Shown here: positions 38,283 to 53,630 of the stretch, piece by piece
Layout of the letters: every line of letters begins with the position of its first letter
How positions within the stretch are numbered: position 1 is the stretch's first letter
Made by a program: the position numbers and the translations under genes
Source of the DNA: Thermodesulfovibrionales bacterium
GTDB taxonomy: Bacteria > Nitrospirota > Thermodesulfovibrionia > Thermodesulfovibrionales > Dissulfurispiraceae
Assembly (NCBI GenBank): GCA_026415695.1
Contig: JAOAGP010000088.1
Location: forward strand, 1 to 64,000
DNA: 64,000 nucleotides
Direction: 5' to 3'
Notes under the pieces: generated by a model
Database searches by the model: none
Told to the model about the DNA's origin: nothing
The model's input: the letters and a program-made list of their open reading frames with translations, nothing else

Positions 38283-39056
38283 CTACCAGACTATATCCTC
38301 ACTGTTAAAGACAGGGCCATCTTTACAAACCGATTTAAGACCATCGTTTGTCCTTACCACACAACTAAGACATGCCCCCACACCACACGCCATGTATTCC
38401 TCAAGCGAAACATAACACCTTAAACCCCTTTGTCTTGCCCAGTTTATAACAGCACTAAGCATCAGATGAGGTCCGCAGGCATAAACATCCATAGTTAGAT
38501 TATCAACTCTATCCAGTGCATCTATAACAGTGCCTTTTATTCCATAGCTACCGTCATCTGTGCTAAAGAAGGATTGATAAGACAGATTTTTTATAGAGTC
38601 TGTCATAATCAACTCCTCTACACTCCTTGCACCATAGAAAAGATATGCCTTTTGAGAAAATCTCTCTATCAAACCGTGTATGGATGCAACACCTGTTCCT
38701 CCTGCAATTGCAATAAACTCACCATTTGGAGTAGGGTATGGGATTCCCAACGGTCCAATCAATTCAATAGTCTCACCCAATGGTAATTTAGAAAGACATT
38801 CAGTGCCTCTACCAACAATCTTATATAAAAGATGAATACATTGGTCCTTAATACTAAAAATGCTCAAAGGTCTTTTTAGGAGCGGGTCAATGCCCTTGGA
38901 GACCTGTATCATATAAAACTGTCCTGGTTGAGGTAATTGAACCCCCTCTTTAGGACTAAAGGATATTACTGCAGTTGTGGGATTTACCTTATAATTACCT
39001 TTTATCTCTGCCTTGAAGTATCTATCCAAAGGTAATCTCAAGTATCTCGTATTCAA
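38283..39056 (-). CDS. pyrK: Dihydroorotate dehydrogenase B, electron-transfer subunit
   Basis: FAD and [2Fe-2S] protein that passes electrons from PyrD to NAD+. The 257 aa show a ferredoxin-reductase-like FAD domain ([15 protein letters not shown]), an NAD domain ([11 protein letters not shown]) and the C-terminal iron-sulfur Cys set [20 protein letters not shown]. The start is uncertain: all candidates are TTG (39056, 39041 or 39029), and the longest overlaps greA by 35 bp. The conserved FAD domain begins near residue 15 in this numbering, so any of them would keep it. Confidence 0.9.
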
Positions 39057-39495
39057 TATCCCTTGCAGGAGCCTTTACTTTAACTACATCTCCAACCTCT
39101 TTACCAATAAGCGCCCTGCCAACAGGGGATGTGACGGATATCTTTCCTGCTTTTACATCTGTCTCATCAGGACCAACAAGGATAAACACAAATTCGTCAT
39201 CAGCATTGCTGTCATAAACCCTAACCTTTGCACCAAATGCAACCTTGTCTTGATTGATCTTTGAAGGGTCAATCACCTCAGCAGAGGCAATCTTTGCCTG
39301 AAGTTCTTGGATCCTTCCCTCTATAAATGATTGTTTTTCCCTTGCTGCGTGATATTCTGCATTTTCTGACAAATCTCCATGAGCCCTTGCCTCTGCAATG
39401 GCTTGGATTATCTGGGGCCTTTCCACTGTTATTAGCCTTTCAAGTTCGTCTTTGAGTTTCTTTAAGCCTTCAGGTGTTATTGGCGTTCTCATCAT
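39022..39495 (-). CDS. greA: Transcription elongation factor GreA
   Basis: 157-aa factor that stimulates RNA cleavage in backtracked RNA polymerase. The N-terminal coiled coil contains the tip acidic residues in [20 protein letters not shown] (about 37-56), and the C-terminal FKBP-like domain ends with [26 protein letters not shown]. It starts with two Met codons (39495 and 39492). It heads the greA-pyrK-pyrD-SAM hydrolase-glycosyltransferase-deacetylase run; overlapping starts and small gaps throughout suggest one transcript. Confidence 0.96.
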
Positions 39496-39570: not shown

Positions 39571-39602
39571 AAAAAAGCCCTCTTTTAGTATAAAGAGGGC
39601 TT
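39571..39602 (-). terminator. Intrinsic terminator of the double-FlaF gene
   Basis: An 11-bp stem, AAGCCCTCTTT (39575-39585) with AAAGAGGGCTT (39592-39602), loop of six, followed on the minus strand by TTTTTTATTTA. It starts 18 bp after the stop codon of the FlaF-like gene. Confidence 0.88.
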
Positions 39603-39619: not shown

Positions 39620-40324
39620 CTACTTATCAACAGGTATCCCTAAAAGTCCTGCAGCAATGTTTGTATTAATACTTATAATCTGTGTAATCGTATCCTTTGA
39701 AGGATTGGCAAGTGCTTCAAAGGTCTTTTTGTCTACAAAAAGGCTCAGATTCAAAAGATTATTCTTAAGGTCAAGCGGTAGGGGATTTTCTGGTTTAGAT
39801 ATTTCAGTCTGTAAAATCGTCCACACTCCTTGATTATACCTCAATGCCCTCTCGAGCCTTTCGTTAAAATCCTTTGCATCCCAGTTATCAATGCAATCCT
39901 TCAACATCAACGCACATTTGACAAGGACTGATGCCTCAAGCTCTCTGCCAGATTCAAACGATTCTGACTCTGGCACTGATATGCCTAATAACCCAGCAGC
40001 AATGTTTGCATTTACCCTGATGATAGGGGTCAGCTTATCTGGGGTTGGGTCTGCAAGTGCCTCCATAATCTTTTTATCAACAAAAAGGCTTAAGTTGAGG
40101 ATATTCTGTCTTATCTCAAGTGGAAGTGGGTTGTCTGGTTTTGAAAGTTCATCCTGAAGTATGCTCCATACAGATTGATTGTAATTCAACGCCTCTTTGA
40201 GTCTGCTCTCCCTGTTAAAATCATTCCAATTATCCTGACAACTCTTTAACATCTGCATTGCGGTTACCAATACAGATGCCTCCAATTCCCTACCTTCTAA
40301 AATCCTATTGCCTAAAGATATCAT
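39620..40324 (-). CDS. Tandem FlaF-domain protein (flagellin biosynthesis regulator-like)
   Basis: 234-aa protein made of two similar halves (about 8-115 and 125-232), each beginning GRELEASVLV, passing through a NQ(S/G)VW(S/T)ILQ block, then NPLPL(E/D).. and NLSLFVDK, and ending N(I/T)..NIAAGLLGI. The pattern matches FlaF, which in alphaproteobacteria works with FlbT to time flagellin mRNA translation; typical FlaF has one such domain of about 110 aa. The halves differ strongly at DNA level, so the duplication is old. GGGAGGA lies 6 nt before ATG 40324. Promoter and terminator frame it as a single-gene unit. No flagellin gene is nearby. Confidence 0.74.
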   Translation of the reverse strand: MISLGNRILEGRELEASVLVTAMQMLKSCQDNWNDFNRESRLKEALNYNQSVWSILQDELSKPDNPLPLEIRQNILNLSLFVDKKIMEALADPTPDKLTPIIRVNANIAAGLLGISVPESESFESGRELEASVLVKCALMLKDCIDNWDAKDFNERLERALRYNQGVWTILQTEISKPENPLPLDLKNNLLNLSLFVDKKTFEALANPSKDTITQIISINTNIAAGLLGIPVDK

Positions 40325-40354
40325 CTTTTATCCTCCCAATTTTTGAGATAATAA

Positions 40355-40384
40355 AGAATACAACTTTCCACAATAAGTTTTCAA
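40355..40384 (-). promoter_or_regulatory. Promoter of the double-FlaF gene
   Basis: Minus strand: TTGAAA (40384-40379), 18-bp spacer, TATTCT (40360-40355). Unlike the leaderless genes, it leaves a leader of about 25 nt with a Shine-Dalgarno. Confidence 0.5.
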
Positions 40385-40436
40385 TACTTCAATCATCTCA
40401 AAACCAAACCTATTATTTATATAAACTTATTTGGGT

Positions 40437-40442
40437 TATAAT
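40437..40442 (+). promoter_or_regulatory. -10 box of lpxB-waaA (leaderless)
   Basis: TATAAT at 40437-40442 lies seven bases before the lpxB ATG at 40450. The -35 region is weak (TATTTA near 40414). The spacing predicts an mRNA beginning at or one base before the ATG. Confidence 0.55.
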
Positions 40443-40449
40443 AAACCGC

Positions 40450-45109: not shown

Positions 45110-46249
45110 CTATTGTCTCTTTGCCTGTCTTGCAAAAACCATGGCAGTGGTTCTATAAACCATGTGTGCCATCTTTGAAAATGGTGCATAGGCAAAGAGG
45201 AAAAATACAAACACAAGATGGATAAAGTAAATTGTGTATGCCAGTGGTGCTATATCTGCCAACCTTGTTAACTGAGCAAGGATACCAGTTACAGCAATGA
45301 CATATATAACCACAATAAACAGCCAATCGTAATAACCTCCCTTACCAGCCTTTAAGGCGTTTTTAAGTCTGTTGTTGGTCACAAGGGTGATACCAATTAA
45401 TAACCCAATCGCACTAATGTTACCAACTATCTTCATAGGGTCATACAATGGATAAGGTGAAGGGCGTCCCAAGATATACAGATAAAACACTGCCCATGTG
45501 GTAGTAATACCAAGTCCAATGAAGGAGAAAAACACAAGCATGTGAGCAGTTGATCTTTCTTTTGTTACATTACATTTTTTGAAGTTGTTATGAGATATAA
45601 TCTCCTTGATGGTTTCAACAAGGCTTGTTGTAGTATCAGAGCCGGGTGGTAACGGATAATTCTTTGCCATGTCAGCCCAATACTTCTTAATCCCCATCAC
45701 AAATGATACAACTGCAAATAAGGCAGCAGATATAAACACAGGGTCAATGTAAAATGTAGGATACAACATCTTTGAGAATGAAATCTTACCAAACTCATTG
45801 CGAGGTATCTCTCCAAAGAGATAACCCTGTATGTGTAGCAGGAACAGGAATATTATTGTGGGTATAGCAAGAAGAACTAACAGATATTTTGGATCATTGA
45901 CCATCTTTGCAAGAAATGAAGGGGGTGAGTAGTGCTGAATTGCCATTTTTCTAACTGCACCTAAAACCTCACCGGGCTTAGCACCTCTTGGACAATAGGC
46001 AGTGCAATCGCTGCATTGATGGCAAAGCCATATGTCTGGGTTGCTGATTAGCTTTTCCTTCATGCCCCATTGGGCATACAACATCTCCTTCCTTGGGAAA
46101 GGCTTGTCATCAGGTGTCATCCCACATACAACTGTACATGTTGAACACTGATAACACTTCTTGAGATCTCCGCCACCTGATGCAATAACATCCTTAACAA
46201 ATTCCAAATCAGGCTTGACTATCTCTTCAGTCCTTTGTTGTTCTGACAT
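45110..46249 (-). CDS. qmoC: QmoC: quinone-interacting membrane oxidoreductase, membrane subunit
   Basis: Membrane subunit of the Qmo complex, which passes electrons between menaquinol and APS reductase. 379 aa: an N-terminal HdrC-like domain with two Cys motifs for [4Fe-4S] clusters, CYQCSTCTVVCG (about 38-49) and CHQCSDCTAYCP (about 76-87), and a C-terminal cytochrome-b-like membrane region with six helices (about 120-365). It follows qmoB by 18 bp. Confidence 0.94.
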   Translation of the reverse strand: MSEQQRTEEIVKPDLEFVKDVIASGGGDLKKCYQCSTCTVVCGMTPDDKPFPRKEMLYAQWGMKEKLISNPDIWLCHQCSDCTAYCPRGAKPGEVLGAVRKMAIQHYSPPSFLAKMVNDPKYLLVLLAIPTIIFLFLLHIQGYLFGEIPRNEFGKISFSKMLYPTFYIDPVFISAALFAVVSFVMGIKKYWADMAKNYPLPPGSDTTTSLVETIKEIISHNNFKKCNVTKERSTAHMLVFFSFIGLGITTTWAVFYLYILGRPSPYPLYDPMKIVGNISAIGLLIGITLVTNNRLKNALKAGKGGYYDWLFIVVIYVIAVTGILAQLTRLADIAPLAYTIYFIHLVFVFFLFAYAPFSKMAHMVYRTTAMVFARQAKRQ

Positions 46250-46267
46250 TACATCCTCCTTATTACT

Positions 46268-48415
46268 TTAGAAGCCCTTGAAGGGGTTAGGGCCAATTTC
46301 TTTTACTCTCTCAACAAAATCACTTATTATCTTTGGCACTTGATTATATTCATCAATCGCAAGCTGAACCATCTGCACTCTTTCTGCTTCCAATTGCAAC
46401 CTACCAAGTGTCTCTTGCACCTTGCCTAATCTATAGTTTGCAAGTTCACTACCTTTAGCAAAATGGCACTGATAATTTTCACCATACTTACATCCTAAGA
46501 GCAACATCCCATCAACACCCCTTGATAGAGCATCAGCAATCCAGACAAGGTTGGTAGAACCTAAACACCTTAACTGGACAAACCTTACTGCCCTGTCAAT
46601 CTTTATCTTTGCAAAAGCAGCAGAGTCAAGGGCTGGATAGGCATCGTTTTCACACACAAGAACGATGAGTCTCGGATTATCGTCCTCTGAAGGAACCGAT
46701 ACATTCTTTAGCATTGTTCCAATCATATCTACATGATAATCCTTAAACGAGATAATCCTTTCAGGACATGCACCCATGCATGTTGCACACCTTCTACAAC
46801 GATTGGGTTTAAAGTAAGGAGTCCCTTTCTCATCCTCATCAATCGCACCAAAAGGACATTCCTCTGTGCATCTCTTACATGCTGTGCACTTCTGCATGAA
46901 TGGATCAGGATAAGTCAAATCCCATGCCCTTGGATGAACAGCCTGTCCTTTGGCAACATGCTCTGCACACTGTATTGCCTTTAAGGCAGCCCCTGTAGCA
47001 TCTTCTACCGCCTCTGACATGTTCATGGGTTGTCTGACACAACCAGCTGCATATATACCTGTTCTTCTGGTCTCATATTGGAAGCAAATAAAGTTTGAAT
47101 CTGCAAAACCATTGTATAAATCCAAATCAGGTAAGCCAAGGCCCTGCCTGTATTGTAGGTTTATTATTGGGTCATCAGCAGTTGCAGGCACTACCCCAAC
47201 AGCCAATACCACAAGGTCTGCCTCAACCTTTATCTTTTCACCAAGCAAGGTGTTTTCAGCCTCAACATACAGATTACCATTACCCGCATCTGATATGCCT
47301 GTAACATCTGCCTTTGTAAGCATCACACCTGCATCGTTTTGTGCCTCTTTGTAGTAGTATTCAGTCCTACCGGGTGTCCTAATGTCTTTATAAAAGATCA
47401 TTGCACAGGCACTATCATCTTGTCTTACATACCTTGCCTGTTTTAACGATGTTGCACAGCACATAGCAGAACAATATGGAAGGTGATTCGGATCCCTGCT
47501 ACCTGCACATTGTATAAACGCTACCTTCTTTGCAGGTTTACCATCAGATGGCCTGATAATCTTACCATTATTTTTCTTTGCAATCTCTTCAAATTCTATA
47601 CTTGTTACAACATCCTTAAATTGTCCATAACCTAAATGTTCAAGTTTTGTTGCGTCGTATGGTTTCCAACCAGCTGCAAGCACAATGGTACCAATCTTGA
47701 CCACCTCAGAAGAGCCATTAGTCGTTATGGTTACATCAAATGCACCCGGTTGTCCTTCAGTCTTTTCAACCTTTGAAGATTTGTAAACCTTTATCTTTGG
47801 ATGACTCTCTACAGTCTTTATCATTGACTGTATATCAGTATCCACAATAAGCGGTTCTTTATATGGAAGCGTAGTTGGTATCTGTTTGTATAGTTTATTT
47901 ACAAATCCACCAAGTTGTGCCTCTTTTTCAACGAGAACAACATTGTAGCCCATGTCAGCACATTTAAGGGCAGCAGTCATACCAGTGATACCACCACCGA
48001 TAACGAGAATATTCTTTACAGTCTCCATAATGTAAGGTTCAGGCAGTTCACTCTTCTGAGCCTTGATAATCCCCATCTTGATGTAATCTTCAGCTGCAAG
48101 TTGGATATCTTCTGGTGCCTCTAATAACCACAAAGCAAGTTCCCTTACCGCAACCCTTTCAACAATGCAGCCGGGGAAGTTAAAGACATCGGTCTTCACC
48201 CTGTTTGAGCAGGCAGCAATGATGATGGTATTGACACCTTCATTAGCCATGTCTGCCTTGATGAGATCAACTCCTTCTTGGGCACATAGTGCAAAATGGG
48301 ATTTTACAACAGGTATCCTTTGTGCATTTTTAGCAATATTTGAAATCTTCTCAATATTAACTGCCTCACCTATTCCACATCCACTACATATATACAATGC
48401 CAATTTTTTATCCAT
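46268..48415 (-). CDS. qmoB: QmoB: quinone-interacting membrane oxidoreductase, FAD/FeS subunit
   Basis: Soluble HdrA-like flavoprotein of 715 aa. The FAD-binding GGGITGMTAALKCADMGYNVVLVEK is at about 140-165, a second Cys-rich HdrA-type block has CAGSRDPNHLPYCSAMCC near 313-330, two ferredoxin clusters are at about 508-560 (CTACKRCTEECPFG and CRRCATCMGACP), and a C-terminal MvhD-like domain holds CLGSTN and GCKYGENYQCHFAKG. The MvhD part is known in QmoB of sulfate reducers. Spacing to qmoA is 5 bp. Strong Shine-Dalgarno sites mark this gene set. Confidence 0.94.
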   Translation of the reverse strand: MDKKLALYICSGCGIGEAVNIEKISNIAKNAQRIPVVKSHFALCAQEGVDLIKADMANEGVNTIIIAACSNRVKTDVFNFPGCIVERVAVRELALWLLEAPEDIQLAAEDYIKMGIIKAQKSELPEPYIMETVKNILVIGGGITGMTAALKCADMGYNVVLVEKEAQLGGFVNKLYKQIPTTLPYKEPLIVDTDIQSMIKTVESHPKIKVYKSSKVEKTEGQPGAFDVTITTNGSSEVVKIGTIVLAAGWKPYDATKLEHLGYGQFKDVVTSIEFEEIAKKNNGKIIRPSDGKPAKKVAFIQCAGSRDPNHLPYCSAMCCATSLKQARYVRQDDSACAMIFYKDIRTPGRTEYYYKEAQNDAGVMLTKADVTGISDAGNGNLYVEAENTLLGEKIKVEADLVVLAVGVVPATADDPIINLQYRQGLGLPDLDLYNGFADSNFICFQYETRRTGIYAAGCVRQPMNMSEAVEDATGAALKAIQCAEHVAKGQAVHPRAWDLTYPDPFMQKCTACKRCTEECPFGAIDEDEKGTPYFKPNRCRRCATCMGACPERIISFKDYHVDMIGTMLKNVSVPSEDDNPRLIVLVCENDAYPALDSAAFAKIKIDRAVRFVQLRCLGSTNLVWIADALSRGVDGMLLLGCKYGENYQCHFAKGSELANYRLGKVQETLGRLQLEAERVQMVQLAIDEYNQVPKIISDFVERVKEIGPNPFKGF

Positions 48416-48420
48416 GGTTT

Positions 48421-49677
48421 TTACCTCCTCTGCCCTGAAGTCAGCGCATTCATGGCAGCGCCTGTAGCATCTTGTGCTGATTTTGATACATCCATCGGGT
48501 TCTTACTACACCCAGCAACATACAAGCCTTTATCCTCAATGCCAAATCCTTCATCGGTATATTTAAAGCCTTGAACCTTTAAGGTAGCACCTGATGGTTG
48601 CATTCCTGTAGCCAGCACAACCATATCGTGTGTAGTTTTTATCTTTTTGAGAGATGCCATATCCTCAGCCTCAACCTCAACATCATCACCACTTGCCTGC
48701 TCAATCTTTGCAACCTTCCCCTTTATAAACTGAATGTTTGCGTCCTCTTTTACCTTCCAATAAAACTGCTCATACTTACCGGGTGTCCTTATATCAATGT
48801 AGTAGATGGTAACCTTTGAATCAGGATTTTGTTCCCTGATGTATTGAGCCTGTTTCAAGGATGCCATACAGCATATGTATGAACAAAACTCAAGGTGATT
48901 TTCGTCTCTACTTCCTGCACATTGAACAAACGCAATGTTATTCACAACCTTGCCATCAGAAGGCCTTTTTATCTGACCTGCTGTAGGACCATTGACTGAT
49001 GATAGCCTCTCCATCATCATATTTGTAATGACATTTTTGACCTTTCCAAAGGAGAGGTTATCCATCTTTGTTGCATCGTAAGGATTCCAACCTGTAGCAA
49101 GCACAACAGAATTCGCCTTTATCGTTATCTTTTCGGGTTTCATATTGAGGTCAATTGCGTTGTATTTGCATGCCTCTACACATTTTGCACATGATGCACC
49201 TTTGCAAACTGCTGTATCAATCACATACTTAAAAGGCATTGCCTGATTGAAGGGCAGATATATTGCCTTTGTCTTATCTAATCCAAAATTAAAATCATTA
49301 GCCCTTTCAACAGGACATACATCCACACATGCATTGCATGAAACACAATTGTCATTGACAAATGTAGGTTTCTTAACAATACTGACTGTAAAATCACCTT
49401 CTTTGCCACTGATTGACTCAATCTCAGATGCAACATGGTAGGTTACGAGTGGATTTGTCTTTATCCTTCTAAAGTTGATCTCTAATCCACACATCGGTGG
49501 GCACATCTTTGGAAAGTATTTATTTAGTTGGGCTACCCTACCGCCAAGATAAGGGTTTTTCTCAACAATAACCACTTCGGCACCTGTTTCTGCCGCATCT
49601 ACTGCCGCCGTCAAGCCACTGAAACCCCCTCCGACGACTACAACACGGCATAAAGAAGTCTCTGCCTGTTCAGCCAT
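48421..49677 (-). CDS. qmoA: QmoA: quinone-interacting membrane oxidoreductase, FAD subunit
   Basis: 418-aa HdrA-like flavoprotein that contacts APS reductase in the model of the Qmo complex. The N-terminal Rossmann motif VVVVGGGFSGLTAAVDAAETGAEVVIVEK (about 8-36) is split here for length reasons only. Cys motifs for [4Fe-4S] binding include CVSCNACVDVCP (about 114-125) and CAKCVEACKYN, and the HdrA-type CAGSRDENHLEFCSYICC near 258. It starts 144 bp after aprA with a terminator-like hairpin between, so it is likely made at a different level from AprBA. Confidence 0.93.
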   Translation of the reverse strand: MAEQAETSLCRVVVVGGGFSGLTAAVDAAETGAEVVIVEKNPYLGGRVAQLNKYFPKMCPPMCGLEINFRRIKTNPLVTYHVASEIESISGKEGDFTVSIVKKPTFVNDNCVSCNACVDVCPVERANDFNFGLDKTKAIYLPFNQAMPFKYVIDTAVCKGASCAKCVEACKYNAIDLNMKPEKITIKANSVVLATGWNPYDATKMDNLSFGKVKNVITNMMMERLSSVNGPTAGQIKRPSDGKVVNNIAFVQCAGSRDENHLEFCSYICCMASLKQAQYIREQNPDSKVTIYYIDIRTPGKYEQFYWKVKEDANIQFIKGKVAKIEQASGDDVEVEAEDMASLKKIKTTHDMVVLATGMQPSGATLKVQGFKYTDEGFGIEDKGLYVAGCSKNPMDVSKSAQDATGAAMNALTSGQRR

Positions 49678-49713
49678 GTCATTCCTCCTTTAAATTTTGG
49701 TGAGTTTAATGTA

Positions 49714-49779
49714 AACCCCTCTTTATTATCAGTTGAGCAGTTTAGATTAGCATCTGCACAACTAACACTAAAGAGGGTT
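49714..49779. repeat. Long-range inverted repeat upstream of qmoA
   Basis: AACCCCTCTTTA (49714-49725) and TAAAGAGGGTT (49769-49779) form 11 complementary bases apart from one extra C. They lie between the aprA terminator and the qmoA start, 43 bases apart. They may form an RNA stem in the qmo leader or act as an operator; no promoter is convincingly seen here. Confidence 0.5.
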
Positions 49780-49781
49780 AT

Positions 49782-49809
49782 AAAAAATGGAGGGGCTTGA
49801 TGCCCCTCC
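49782..49809 (-). terminator. Intrinsic terminator between aprA and qmoA
   Basis: An 8-bp GC-rich stem, GGAGGGGC (49789-49796) with GCCCCTCC (49802-49809), loop TTGAT, followed on the minus strand by ATTTTTTATAA. It starts 12 bp after the aprA stop codon. It separates aprBA from qmoABC within the sulfate block. Confidence 0.87.
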
Positions 49810-49821
49810 TTATCGTTCTGA

Positions 49822-51801
49822 TTAGTCTGGTATAATTTGGACATATGGGACTTTCTTGAATTCCCATTTTTGTGTTGCTGGATCATAAACTGAGTTTACA
49901 AAGCATCTCCAATCCTTATCGTTGATAGCTGGGAAATCACCTCTGTAGTAATAGCCAGGATACCTTGTCTCCTCTCTAAAGAGGATGTGTCTTGCATGAG
50001 CCTCTACTGAAAGGATTCTGTGGTAGTTTTCCCAACATCTCATAAGTTCATGGAGGTTCTTTGCTGCCATCATTGCTGAGTCTTCCTTAAGCATCTCTAA
50101 TTGCTTGAGTCCTTCTTCAAGCATGGTCTTTGATGTCATATACCATGTTGAAATACCGCCAAAGTACTCATCAGCAATCTTCTGGAGCCTTGCCTGTAGC
50201 ATTGATGGCTTGATGTAGTATGGATTGACCTCAGGGTCAGTTGAGTGGTTTTTGTATTTTTCATAAATCTCGTATGGAGCATAGAGTTCTGCTGCTATCT
50301 CATCGGCTGTCTCTTTTATTGTTGGTTTGTAGTTTGGCTCATCAAGTATTAATGCAAGGGCTGCCTTTGCTGCAATCCTTCCTTCAGCATGTGAACCAGA
50401 TGAGAACTTGTGACCTGATGCACCAACAACATCACCAGCCATAAAGAGTCCCTTAACTGTTGACATCCTGTTGTAACCCCAACTCCATTCTGTTGGTGTT
50501 CCGGGGATGTCGCCAGGACCACTGACCCAGAATCCTGCACAACCTGCGTGTGAACCTAAGAGGTATGGCTCGGTTGGCATGATCTCAGATGGCATCTTGT
50601 CTGGCTCAACATTCTTACATGCCCAAAGTCCAGCCTGTCCAATTGCCATGTCAAGGAAGTCTTCCCATGCCTCAGCCTCAAGGTGTTTAATCCTCTTAGC
50701 ATCCATCTTTGTTGCTAATTCCTGCATAGCAGTGTGGGTATTCATAAGGATTGGTCCCTTACCTGCCTTCATATCCATCATCATCATATGGTTTCTGATG
50801 GCAGTACCCATCTTCTCTGCATATGGGCTATAGAGTTTCTTTGTCTCCTCAATCCATGTTGCACAGTAGTCCTCACCAAGGGCGTTTGTTGCCTTTGCCT
50901 TGAAGAACAAGAACCATGCACCAACAGGACCATAACCATCCTTAAATCTTGCAGGTACGAACCTGTTTTCCATCATGGTGAGTTCTGCTCCGACCTGCAT
51001 ACCAAGTGCAAAGCCTGAACCAGCGTTCCATACTGGATACCATGCCCTACCTTGTCCTTCCTTAACAGATCTTGGTCTAAATACATTAACGGCACCACCA
51101 GCAGCGTTGATGATTGCCTTTGCCTTGAAGATGTAAACCTTGTTCTCTCTTACGCTAATACCAACAGCAGCTGCAACCCTCTTTGGATCATTAGCATCTT
51201 TTAAGAGTTTTACGATGAATACCCTCTCATAAAGGTTCTGAGGAACTCCAGTAGCCTTTCTGTTGTATTCAAGGGCTGCCTTTGCTGCCTCAGCAACTAC
51301 AACCTTGTATGACTCACCGTTGATCATTATCTGCCACTTACCAGACCTTACTGGTACACCACCATCCTTTAAAAGTGCCTTACCAGCATCCCTTGCCTGG
51401 AAACCGTCAAGTGAGAATCCATCATCAGCCTTCTTCCAAATAGGAAGTCCCCATTCTTCAAAGAGATGAACTGAATTATCAACATGCCTACCAAGGTCAA
51501 ATACGAGGTCTTCCCTGATGATACCCATCAAGTCACCTCTAACATACTTTACATAGTCTGCAACCTTATTCTCACCGATGTAGGTGTTGATTGCTGATAA
51601 GCCCATTGCAACTGCACCACTTCTGTCTGTTGCAGCCTTATCAACCATTGTTACCTTGATGCCTTTTGGTGTTGCCCAACGAGCCGCCTCGTATGCTGCA
51701 CCACAACATGCCATACCACCACCAACTAATAAGAGGTCTGTCTCAACCTCTATAATCTCTGGCTTTGCACAATATGAAAATGTACAGGTCTCTTTTTCCA
51801 T
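49822..51801 (-). CDS. aprA: Adenylylsulfate (APS) reductase, alpha subunit
   Basis: FAD subunit of dissimilatory APS reductase (APS to sulfite plus AMP), cytoplasmic. 659 aa, the normal length. FAD site: TDLLLVGGGMACCGAAYEAARWA near 21-43 and GDVVGASGHKFSSGSHAEGRIAAKA near 455-479. Substrate-site residues sit in RFVPARFKDGYGPVGAW and in GSHAGCAGFWVSGPGD. The start has GGAGGGAG upstream. It follows aprB by 21 bp. The set with Qmo fits the reductive (sulfate-reducing) direction, though the sequence does not prove direction. Confidence 0.97.
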   Translation of the reverse strand: MEKETCTFSYCAKPEIIEVETDLLLVGGGMACCGAAYEAARWATPKGIKVTMVDKAATDRSGAVAMGLSAINTYIGENKVADYVKYVRGDLMGIIREDLVFDLGRHVDNSVHLFEEWGLPIWKKADDGFSLDGFQARDAGKALLKDGGVPVRSGKWQIMINGESYKVVVAEAAKAALEYNRKATGVPQNLYERVFIVKLLKDANDPKRVAAAVGISVRENKVYIFKAKAIINAAGGAVNVFRPRSVKEGQGRAWYPVWNAGSGFALGMQVGAELTMMENRFVPARFKDGYGPVGAWFLFFKAKATNALGEDYCATWIEETKKLYSPYAEKMGTAIRNHMMMMDMKAGKGPILMNTHTAMQELATKMDAKRIKHLEAEAWEDFLDMAIGQAGLWACKNVEPDKMPSEIMPTEPYLLGSHAGCAGFWVSGPGDIPGTPTEWSWGYNRMSTVKGLFMAGDVVGASGHKFSSGSHAEGRIAAKAALALILDEPNYKPTIKETADEIAAELYAPYEIYEKYKNHSTDPEVNPYYIKPSMLQARLQKIADEYFGGISTWYMTSKTMLEEGLKQLEMLKEDSAMMAAKNLHELMRCWENYHRILSVEAHARHILFREETRYPGYYYRGDFPAINDKDWRCFVNSVYDPATQKWEFKKVPYVQIIPD

Positions 51802-51822
51802 TTATGTCTCCCTCCTTTTAAT

Positions 51823-52248
51823 TTATTCAGTTCTTGCTTCTTTATTGAAGAAGCCAGGACCTTTTAGTTTTGAGAAATCAGGCTCTGGTAATCCTTTGTA
51901 TGGGTCGTCACCGAGGTGCCCTTCTGGTGTAAGCCTGATAGGGAACTTAAATCTCTTGAGAGAGCCATTTCTGAATTTGATTGTCCACATAATTGAGTCT
52001 GAACCTCTCATCGGGATAACATTTCCACCAAGAGGTGCGAAATCCTGATATGCCCTTACTTCTATTGCCTGTTGTGGGCAAATCTTAACACAGTTGTAGC
52101 ATTCCCAGCACTGATCTGGCTCCTGATTGTAAGCCTTCATTAAATCCCTGTTAAGCACCATAAGGTCATTAGGACAGATATACTGACATGCAGTCTTATC
52201 CTGTGCCTTGCAACCGTCACACTTTTCAGTAATAACAAAACTTGGCAT
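51823..52248 (-). CDS. aprB: Adenylylsulfate (APS) reductase, beta subunit
   Basis: 141-aa electron-transfer subunit with two [4Fe-4S] clusters: Cys set 1 in CDGCKAQDKTACQYICPNDLM (about 10-30) and set 2 in CWECYNCVKICPQQAIEVR (about 47-65). The C-terminal extension (about 90-141) wraps the alpha subunit in known structures. Strong AAGGAGG before ATG 52248. Between sat and this gene is a 161-bp gap holding two inverted repeats. Confidence 0.97.
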   Translation of the reverse strand: MPSFVITEKCDGCKAQDKTACQYICPNDLMVLNRDLMKAYNQEPDQCWECYNCVKICPQQAIEVRAYQDFAPLGGNVIPMRGSDSIMWTIKFRNGSLKRFKFPIRLTPEGHLGDDPYKGLPEPDFSKLKGPGFFNKEARTE

Positions 52249-52353
52249 AAGAAATAACCTCCTTCTAATTTTTGTTTTTTGATATTAAATCTCTAAGATT
52301 AATAAATCTACTGACTTACCCCTCTTCCTTTCTCTCCTTTCTGCATCCCCCCT

Positions 52354-52396
52354 TTCCTTAATTTAAGGAAGGTGAGCATATTTGCCCACCTCGTCC
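52354..52396 (-). repeat. Two inverted repeats in the sat-aprB gap
   Basis: Symmetric TTCCTTAATTTAAGGAA (52354-52370) is an 8-bp perfect palindrome around a single base. Directly next to it, GGTGAGC and GCCCACC (about 52371-52390) can pair with one mismatch. Neither is followed by a U-tract on the minus strand, so they look like RNA-processing or stability hairpins, or an operator, rather than a terminator. Confidence 0.5.
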
Positions 52397-52409
52397 CTTA
52401 ATAGTAATT

Positions 52410-53630
52410 TTATTTCTTTTCCCCCTCAGCGTATTTGTGGAGTTTGATCTCAACCTTCTCAGTAAGTCCTTGATAGTATTCCTTGAGGATCTCTACTACT
52501 TCTGGTCTACTAAACTGGCTTGATACCTCTTCACCTTCTGAAAGCATCTTCCTCAGTTTTGTTCCGCTAAGCAGAACCCTATCGTCTTTTCCATGTGGAC
52601 ATGTTCTCATAGATGCCATGCCATCACACTTCCTGCAGTAGAATGTCCAGTCAATCTTTAGAGGTTTTGTCTCTAACGCATCTGCAGGGATTTCATCAAA
52701 TATCTTCTGTGCATCAAATGGACCGTAATACTCACCAACACCTGCATGGTCTCTACCAATTATCATGTCTGAACAACCATAGTTTTGCCTAAAGAGTGCA
52801 TGTAACAATGCCTCTCTTGGACCCGCATATCTCATATCAAGTGGGTATCCCGCTTGTATGCAAGTATTAGGGACAAAATACAATTCTACTAACTTATTGA
52901 TAGCCCTTACCCTAACCTCTGCTGGGATATCACCGGGTTTTAATTTGCCAAGTAATTGATGAATAAGGACACCATCGCAAATCTCGATAGCAATCTTTGC
53001 AAGAAACTCGTGGGAACGATGCATTGGGTTTCTTAATTGAAGTGCTGCAACCCTTTTCCATCCCATCTTCTTGAAAAGCTCTCTTGTCTGTGCTGGGGTA
53101 AGGAATAGGTCTGGGTATTGTTGTGGGAAACCACCTTGGCTAAGAACCTTTACAGGACCAGCAAGGTTTACATCTGCTTGCTCCATGACCATCTTGACAC
53201 CGGGGTGCTCTAAATCGTCTGTTTTATAGACGCTCTTGCACTCAAACACCTTATCAATGGTGTACTTTTCGGTAACCTTCATTGTTGCCATAATCTTGCC
53301 ATACTCATCGGAATAAAGGGCAATCTCCTCACCCTCTTTGATGGAGTCGGCATCAGCCTTTGAGGCTGAGACTGTGATTGGTATTGGCCAGAATGTTCCG
53401 TCTGCCATCTTAAAGTCTTTACATACGCCTTCCCAATCAGCCTTGGTCATAAACCCATCAAGTGGGGTAAAACCACCAATCCCCATCATTATGAGGTCTC
53501 CTGACTCACGAGAAGTAATGCTAATCTTTTTCAACTTCTCAGCCTTCTGTTTCTCCTCTTCCAACTCCTTGCCTGTCAGTAAGAGTGGTTTGAGTTTCTT
53601 CTCTTTACCGTGCGGATTTACTAATTCCAT
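52410..53630 (-). CDS. sat: Sulfate adenylyltransferase (ATP sulfurylase)
   Basis: Activates sulfate to APS with release of PPi. 406 aa, homo-oligomeric archaeal/bacterial type. Active-site blocks: ATP-binding [17 protein letters not shown] (about 195-211; HxxH kept), [20 protein letters not shown] (about 288-307), and a zinc-finger-like [15 protein letters not shown] near 327-341. It starts 66 bp after adk with AGGAGGGA. This is the first step of dissimilatory sulfate reduction and commits two phosphate bonds. Confidence 0.97.

Follow-up and report, generated by a model that had tools for sequence, protein, structure and literature searches.

A conserved two-domain FlaF protein in one genus of Nitrospirota and a candidate leader element of FlaF-type flagellin genes

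In most other bacteria the flagellin export chaperone is FliS. The protein described here belongs to a different family, FlaF, which is ordinarily a single domain encoded beside flbT and flagellin and is known from the FlbT/FlaF module of Caulobacter and other Alphaproteobacteria. According to the portion of PMC7591256 available to us, Caulobacter FlaF binds all six flagellins and directs their secretion, and FlmG is the enzyme that glycosylates Caulobacter flagellin, which it binds through a TPR domain. FlbT is described as the RNA-binding partner, with reported binding to the 5′ UTR of flagellin mRNA; the available portion of that paper (PMC4347634) leaves the mechanism unresolved and gives no motif.

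The window studied here is a stretch of 64,000 nucleotides from a Thermodesulfovibrionales bacterium. Its double FlaF belongs to genome G000 (2.2 Mb, 99.7% complete), which was compared with two other genomes of the genus, G001 and G002. The original prediction, made from the letters of the window, was of a fused double FlaF protein with its own promoter and terminator, away from flagellar genes. The features of the locus are as follows.

39620 to 40324, minus strand: double FlaF gene, 234 amino acids (open reading frame list and translation; Pfam and NCBIfam FlaF)
39989 to 40306, minus strand: first FlaF domain, residues 7–112 (PF07309, 100.4 bits against a cut-off of 23.6; four helices in the model)
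39953 to 39988, minus strand: interdomain linker, about residues 113–124 (gap between the domain matches)
39644 to 39967, minus strand: second FlaF domain (PF07309, 97.7 bits; four helices in the model; FliS-like by VIA-align)
39575 to 39602, minus strand: terminator-like hairpin and T run between double flaF and greA (also in G001 and G002)
39022 to 39495, minus strand: greA, the conserved downstream neighbour, given for context only (Pfam GreA_GreB; same neighbour in G001 and G002)
40325 to 40449, no strand assigned: intergenic region common to the divergent lpxB, and leader of double flaF (from sequence)

Architecture, origin and range

The open reading frame starts with ATG and holds two full FlaF domains. 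It matches Pfam FlaF PF07309 in two stretches (E 3.9e-58) and NCBIfam PRK12794, also FlaF, with an E-value of 1.6e-61; the two halves cover profile positions 11–113 and 9–113 of 113 and are 63% identical to each other. The motifs that had suggested a repeat, GRELEAS, VWSILQ/VWTILQ, NPLPL and NLSLFVDK, are each found twice in the frame. Both halves lie above the Pfam cut-off, which confirms the FlaF identity and two-domain make-up of the protein, and the possibility that its repeats are unrelated to FlaF is contradicted by the match of each to the family profile. As full domains, the halves resemble the Caulobacter FlaF family (PF07309/PRK12794): a set of 36 single FlaF proteins shows 25 near-invariant positions, and 21 of these carry the identical residue in every one of the six halves from the three species, the exceptions being the N-terminal Y and the conservative replacements F to Y, I to V and A to S. 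In contrast to ordinary FlaF, the double protein has two domains per chain, lies away from flbT and flagellin, comes in addition to two single FlaF proteins, and lacks in both halves the N-terminal AYxxxQK segment that is conserved in most single FlaF proteins.

When 33 FlaF domains were placed in an IQ-TREE tree, the first halves formed one group (100/97), the second halves formed another (99/95), and the two joined with support of 100/95. The joined halves fall outside both of the genus's single-domain paralogues, FlaF-A and FlaF-B, leaving derivation from either unsupported; the placement of the closest single-domain relative is uncertain (88/84). Because the halves group by position across species, the double FlaF arose by one intragenic duplication, before the three species diverged. 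Between species, each half of the double is 71–83% identical, compared with 62–64% for FlaF-A, 71–75% for FlaF-B, 64–66% for FlbT and 80–84% for greA. The halves are therefore no less conserved than single FlaF proteins (71–83% versus 62–75%), and both look to be under constraint.

The same two-domain frame adjoins greA in both G001 and G002, and the fusion is therefore genuine, neither chance nor an assembly artefact. Tandem duplications are frequent mutations, and these genomes are fragmented assemblies, yet the same architecture recurs in three species, with halves that are 57–64% identical to each other and separately conserved, and we consider it most improbable that the gene is a functionless chance or decaying duplication, or an artefact.

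Of the 395 genomes from the phylum, three have two FlaF domains in one frame, and each of them belongs to this genus; FlaF as such was found in 23. No double was found in 395 genomes from the phylum of Geobacter argillaceus (G404; FlaF in 23), in 398 from the phylum of a bin labelled Thiobacillus (G436; FlaF in 95) or in 45 genomes behind the loci that we collected, for which 45 of 80 loci were used and two double-bearing loci were left out; these genome sets overlap. Among the best 80 loci of a separate contig collection, only L077 and L078 hold doubles, and these are the G001 and G002 genes; L078 bears the label Nitrospirae, from which the phylum is named Nitrospirota here. A scan of the contig collection with a single sequence as query returned no relatives, and no double was found in 15 plasmid records, where no match covers 80% of the query. 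Among the genomes searched, the double FlaF is restricted to one small genus of uncultured bacteria. We found no mention of a tandem FlaF in titles or abstract openings of the literature searched, and the phrase “FlaF domain” occurs in no paper of that literature.

Other candidate doubles were rejected. In G641, two matches in one frame proved to be two parts of one domain, and G420 and G1112 each carry a pair of distinct flaF genes, spaced by about 2.6 and 3.6 kb, respectively. The 181-amino-acid FlaF frame of G641 (G641:C29:117036-117542) has its match split (positions 3–93 and 79–113), as if an insert had broken the domain. A bin labelled Thiobacillus denitrificans has two flaF genes separated by about 2.6 kb (L108:5956-6324 and L108:8554-8958); neighbouring paralogues of this kind are an arrangement from which a fusion could start.

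Predicted fold and genomic setting

AlphaFold2 predicted two four-helix bundles for the double FlaF (mean pLDDT 86.3, pTM 0.56), with residues 119–124 of the linker below a pLDDT of 50, and one bundle with an additional, ill-defined helix at the N terminus for a single FlaF of the genus (pLDDT 87.6, pTM 0.78). The eight best PDB entries by VIA-align were all FliS, both for the double (Z 12.4–13.7; next unrelated entry 10.9) and for the single protein (Z 11.7–14.0; next 11.4). Foldseek is less favorable, with E-values to FliS chains of only 0.4–1.0 for the double and mostly 0.025–0.14 for the single; helical bundles match widely in structure comparison, and these matches rest on models. By VIA-align, the predicted bundles of double and single FlaF are FliS-like. 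The double differs from FliS in having two bundles in one chain and in its sequence: Pfam FliS gave no match up to E 10, and hhalign of FlaF against five FliS proteins (probability 0.2) found no sequence homology. A sequence search for a solved FlaF structure gave none up to E 1. The two halves may form an intramolecular dimer, but the pTM of the whole model is only 0.56, so that their mutual placement in it is of low confidence.

FlaF matches in G000 fall at three loci: FlaF-A, which overlaps flbT at a contig end; FlaF-B, beside a TPR gene and hisC-ffh-trxA-like genes (gene names assigned by eye); and the double. G001 and G002 carry the same trio, and in both genomes flagellin, flbT and flaF-A stand in a row, like the Caulobacter module; the genus differs from that module in having a third, fused FlaF on top. 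It is FlaF-A, not the double, that has the usual FlaF setting. The TPR genes that follow FlaF-A in G001 and FlaF-B in G000 encode a glycosyltransferase-9 domain as well, and the one after FlaF-B in G002 encodes TPR only. The layout of the TPR and glycosyltransferase-9 proteins at L026:10201-12717 and L022:6216-7487 resembles that of FlmG-type flagellin glycosyltransferases, a likeness drawn from comparison with the description in the available portion of PMC7591256 and not from sequence.

The original prediction held that two FlaF domains in one chain could form an internal dimer that replaces pairing with FlbT, or could bind two flagellin messages, and proposed asking whether flbT is missing where the double occurs. 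It is not: each of the three double-bearing genomes has flbT, along with two ordinary flaF genes. Because flbT is found there beside its own single flaF, we reject the double FlaF as a replacement for FlbT. The binding of two messages found no support, since the available portion of PMC7591256 describes FlaF as a chaperone that binds flagellin protein, RNA binding is ascribed to FlbT (PMC4347634, available portion) and the halves are modelled as FliS-like. Neither version of this idea retains more than a very slight probability.

Judged by Flagellin_N, G000 contains only one flagellin, of 285 amino acids, and one FlgL-like protein of 377 amino acids, which we presume from its size to be FlgL. 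Three FlaF genes therefore stand against one flagellin and one FlgL-like protein, and FlaF-A sits with flagellin and flbT; this would fit a division of labour in which FlaF-A serves the filament flagellin and the double is dedicated to the junction or cap proteins (FlgL, FlgK, FliD). However, the double has no link to any junction or cap gene, and in two relatives (G014 and G023) a second FlaF gene occurs without any double. We regard such a division as rather unlikely.

Downstream of the double gene, on the same strand, lie greA, pyrK, pyrD and a SAM hydroxide adenosyltransferase gene; upstream and divergent are lpxB, then a kdotransferase gene, then an H+-pyrophosphatase gene. None of 20 neighbouring proteins scanned is flagellar, in agreement with the predicted position away from flagellar genes. 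Elsewhere in the window, a sulfur-metabolism cluster occupies 45110-53630 on the minus strand, with APS reductase beta subunit, ATP sulfurylase, a FAD-binding protein, and iron-sulfur/FAD proteins that we take to be of the Qmo or heterodisulfide-reductase type (the domains come from a domain search; the Qmo and AprA labels are our assumption).

The expectation that the gene has its own promoter and terminator was borne out for the terminator. One terminator-like hairpin was observed after double flaF (39602-39575) against 0.6 expected in shuffles, and because a hairpin with a T run lies at the matching place in both other species of the genus, double flaF probably ends its own transcript. The promoter did not fare as well: the leader contains one weak sigma-70-like site, compared with 4.3 in shuffles. 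No FliA-type promoter was found before double flaF by the patterns used, which are weak before the flagellin genes of the genus too.

With no flagellar genes around it, no FliA-type promoter by these patterns and its N-terminal segment lost, the double FlaF might have moved to a non-flagellar job with a different client. We think this improbable, even more so than the division of labour above: both halves keep the near-invariant residues of flagellar FlaF, and every genome that carries the double also has FlbT, FlhA and two further FlaF genes.

FlaF, FliS and flagellin leaders among relatives

Sixty relatives (G000 to G059) were compared, of which 41 have FlhA. Among these 41 genomes, eight have FlaF only, 28 have FliS only, one (G046) has both and four have neither (Fisher p 4e-5); within the family the corresponding counts are six, 18, zero and four (p 6e-4), and these tests ignore shared ancestry. 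The test on the 41 genomes supersedes one over all 60, which gave p 0.027. The four genomes with neither protein are G010, G020, G028 and G030; in G028 a partial flagellin is accompanied by a second, weak hit, and the other three show only one weak flagellin-domain hit each. Because flagellin hits in these genomes are weak or partial, assembly gaps likely explain them. One further genome of the family carries an flbT match at a contig end (L062, G011:C36:122-463) without FlaF, FliS or FlhA, and this may be a remnant, contamination or the result of incomplete assembly.

Flagellin itself differs between the two kinds of genome. The best PF00669 flagellin score is at least 126 bits in 24 of the 28 FliS-only genomes, the exceptions being G005, G006 and G029 (58–76 bits) and G021 (none), whereas in the nine FlaF genomes it ranges from 30 to 64 bits. 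Thus, flagellin type changes with the chaperone, as a module swap.

Flagellin genes of FlaF-type genomes are preceded, about 40 nt before the start, by a hairpin with the loop AGAA or AGAA plus one base. The stems differ and covary, with a closing pair of A-T, C-G, T-A or G-C across 54 leaders, a tally in which some of the short stems counted are other hairpins. By one fixed rule, an AGAA-loop hairpin is found in 31 of 55 FlaF-type leaders, where dinucleotide shuffles would give 0.3, and 54 of the 55 show, at the ribosome-binding site, a pyrimidine-AGAA-purine-GG box; because the AGAA rules were written after viewing the leaders, and the leaders are kin by descent, the shuffle control overstates certainty. 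In FliS-type flagellin leaders, both the AGAA hairpin and the AGAA box are absent (0 of 23 each). CsrA usually recognises GGA exposed in the loop of a hairpin, and a GGA-loop hairpin occurs in 20 of these 23 leaders against 2.4 expected (on GGA motifs, see the available portion of PMC4894983).

Within the genus, the AGAA hairpin is present before all three of its flagellin genes and absent before the FlaF-B genes and the double genes, including the leader at 40325 to 40449. The three are:

L047:1396-1470, plus strand: flagellin leader with AGAA-loop hairpin
L026:8445-8519, plus strand: flagellin leader with AGAA-loop hairpin
L029:2017-2091, minus strand: flagellin leader with AGAA-loop hairpin

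No Rfam family matched the AGAA leader element (seven loci searched at gathering thresholds, five with E up to 1). Since FlbT reportedly binds the 5′ UTR of flagellin mRNA and no motif is given (PMC4347634, available portion), these sites may be what FlbT targets. The AGAA element looks more novel than the double FlaF and may deserve more interest. Several Nitrospirota also have a AAGGAGGTGA-like box 80–130 nt before FlaF-type flagellin genes (upstream of L031:7135, L034:6433, L035:5916 and L026:8520), which resembles a second ribosome-binding site or a leader peptide.

Proposed role of the double FlaF

We favor, with some confidence, the reading that the double FlaF is an additional, tandem-fused FlaF paralogue acting as a two-headed flagellin-type export chaperone, with two FliS-like heads that would bind clients. 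This reading rests on the description of FlaF as a chaperone, the FliS-like model, the near exclusion of FliS by FlaF and the conservation of both heads. The protein would be cytosolic, with both heads in one chain; each head would probably bind flagellin or a flagellin-like late export substrate, such as a FlgL-, FlgK- or FliD-like protein, and keep it in an export-ready state for the flagellar type III gate. The two heads may act as a bivalent unit, and the protein would work alongside FlbT and the two single FlaF proteins without taking their place. The position away from flagellar genes, the lack of a FliA-type promoter by the patterns used and the missing AYxxxQK all count against this reading, as do the weak Foldseek E-values, the lack of sequence homology with the five FliS proteins, the presence of both FlaF and FliS in G046, the shared ancestry behind the exclusion counts and the uncertain closest single-domain relative.

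A more specific version of the two-headed chaperone is tentative, and we hold it with clearly less conviction. In this version the double FlaF would deliver to the export gate either two flagellin-type subunits or flagellin together with a junction or cap protein, and its lineage would earlier have swapped a whole FliS/GGA-CsrA-type module for an FlbT/FlaF module with AGAA-loop flagellin mRNA.

As a variant of a known family, the double FlaF is genuine and conserved, though modest and narrowly distributed. Being naturally fused, it offers a simple way to test whether FlaF acts singly, as a pair or on two clients. More broadly, the comparison suggests that FlaF takes the place of FliS in both structure and function, and that entire modules of flagellin control, FliS with GGA leaders on the one hand and FlbT/FlaF with AGAA leaders on the other, have been exchanged between lineages. 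If the reading of the AGAA sites as FlbT targets holds, what FlbT recognises in flagellin mRNA becomes directly testable.
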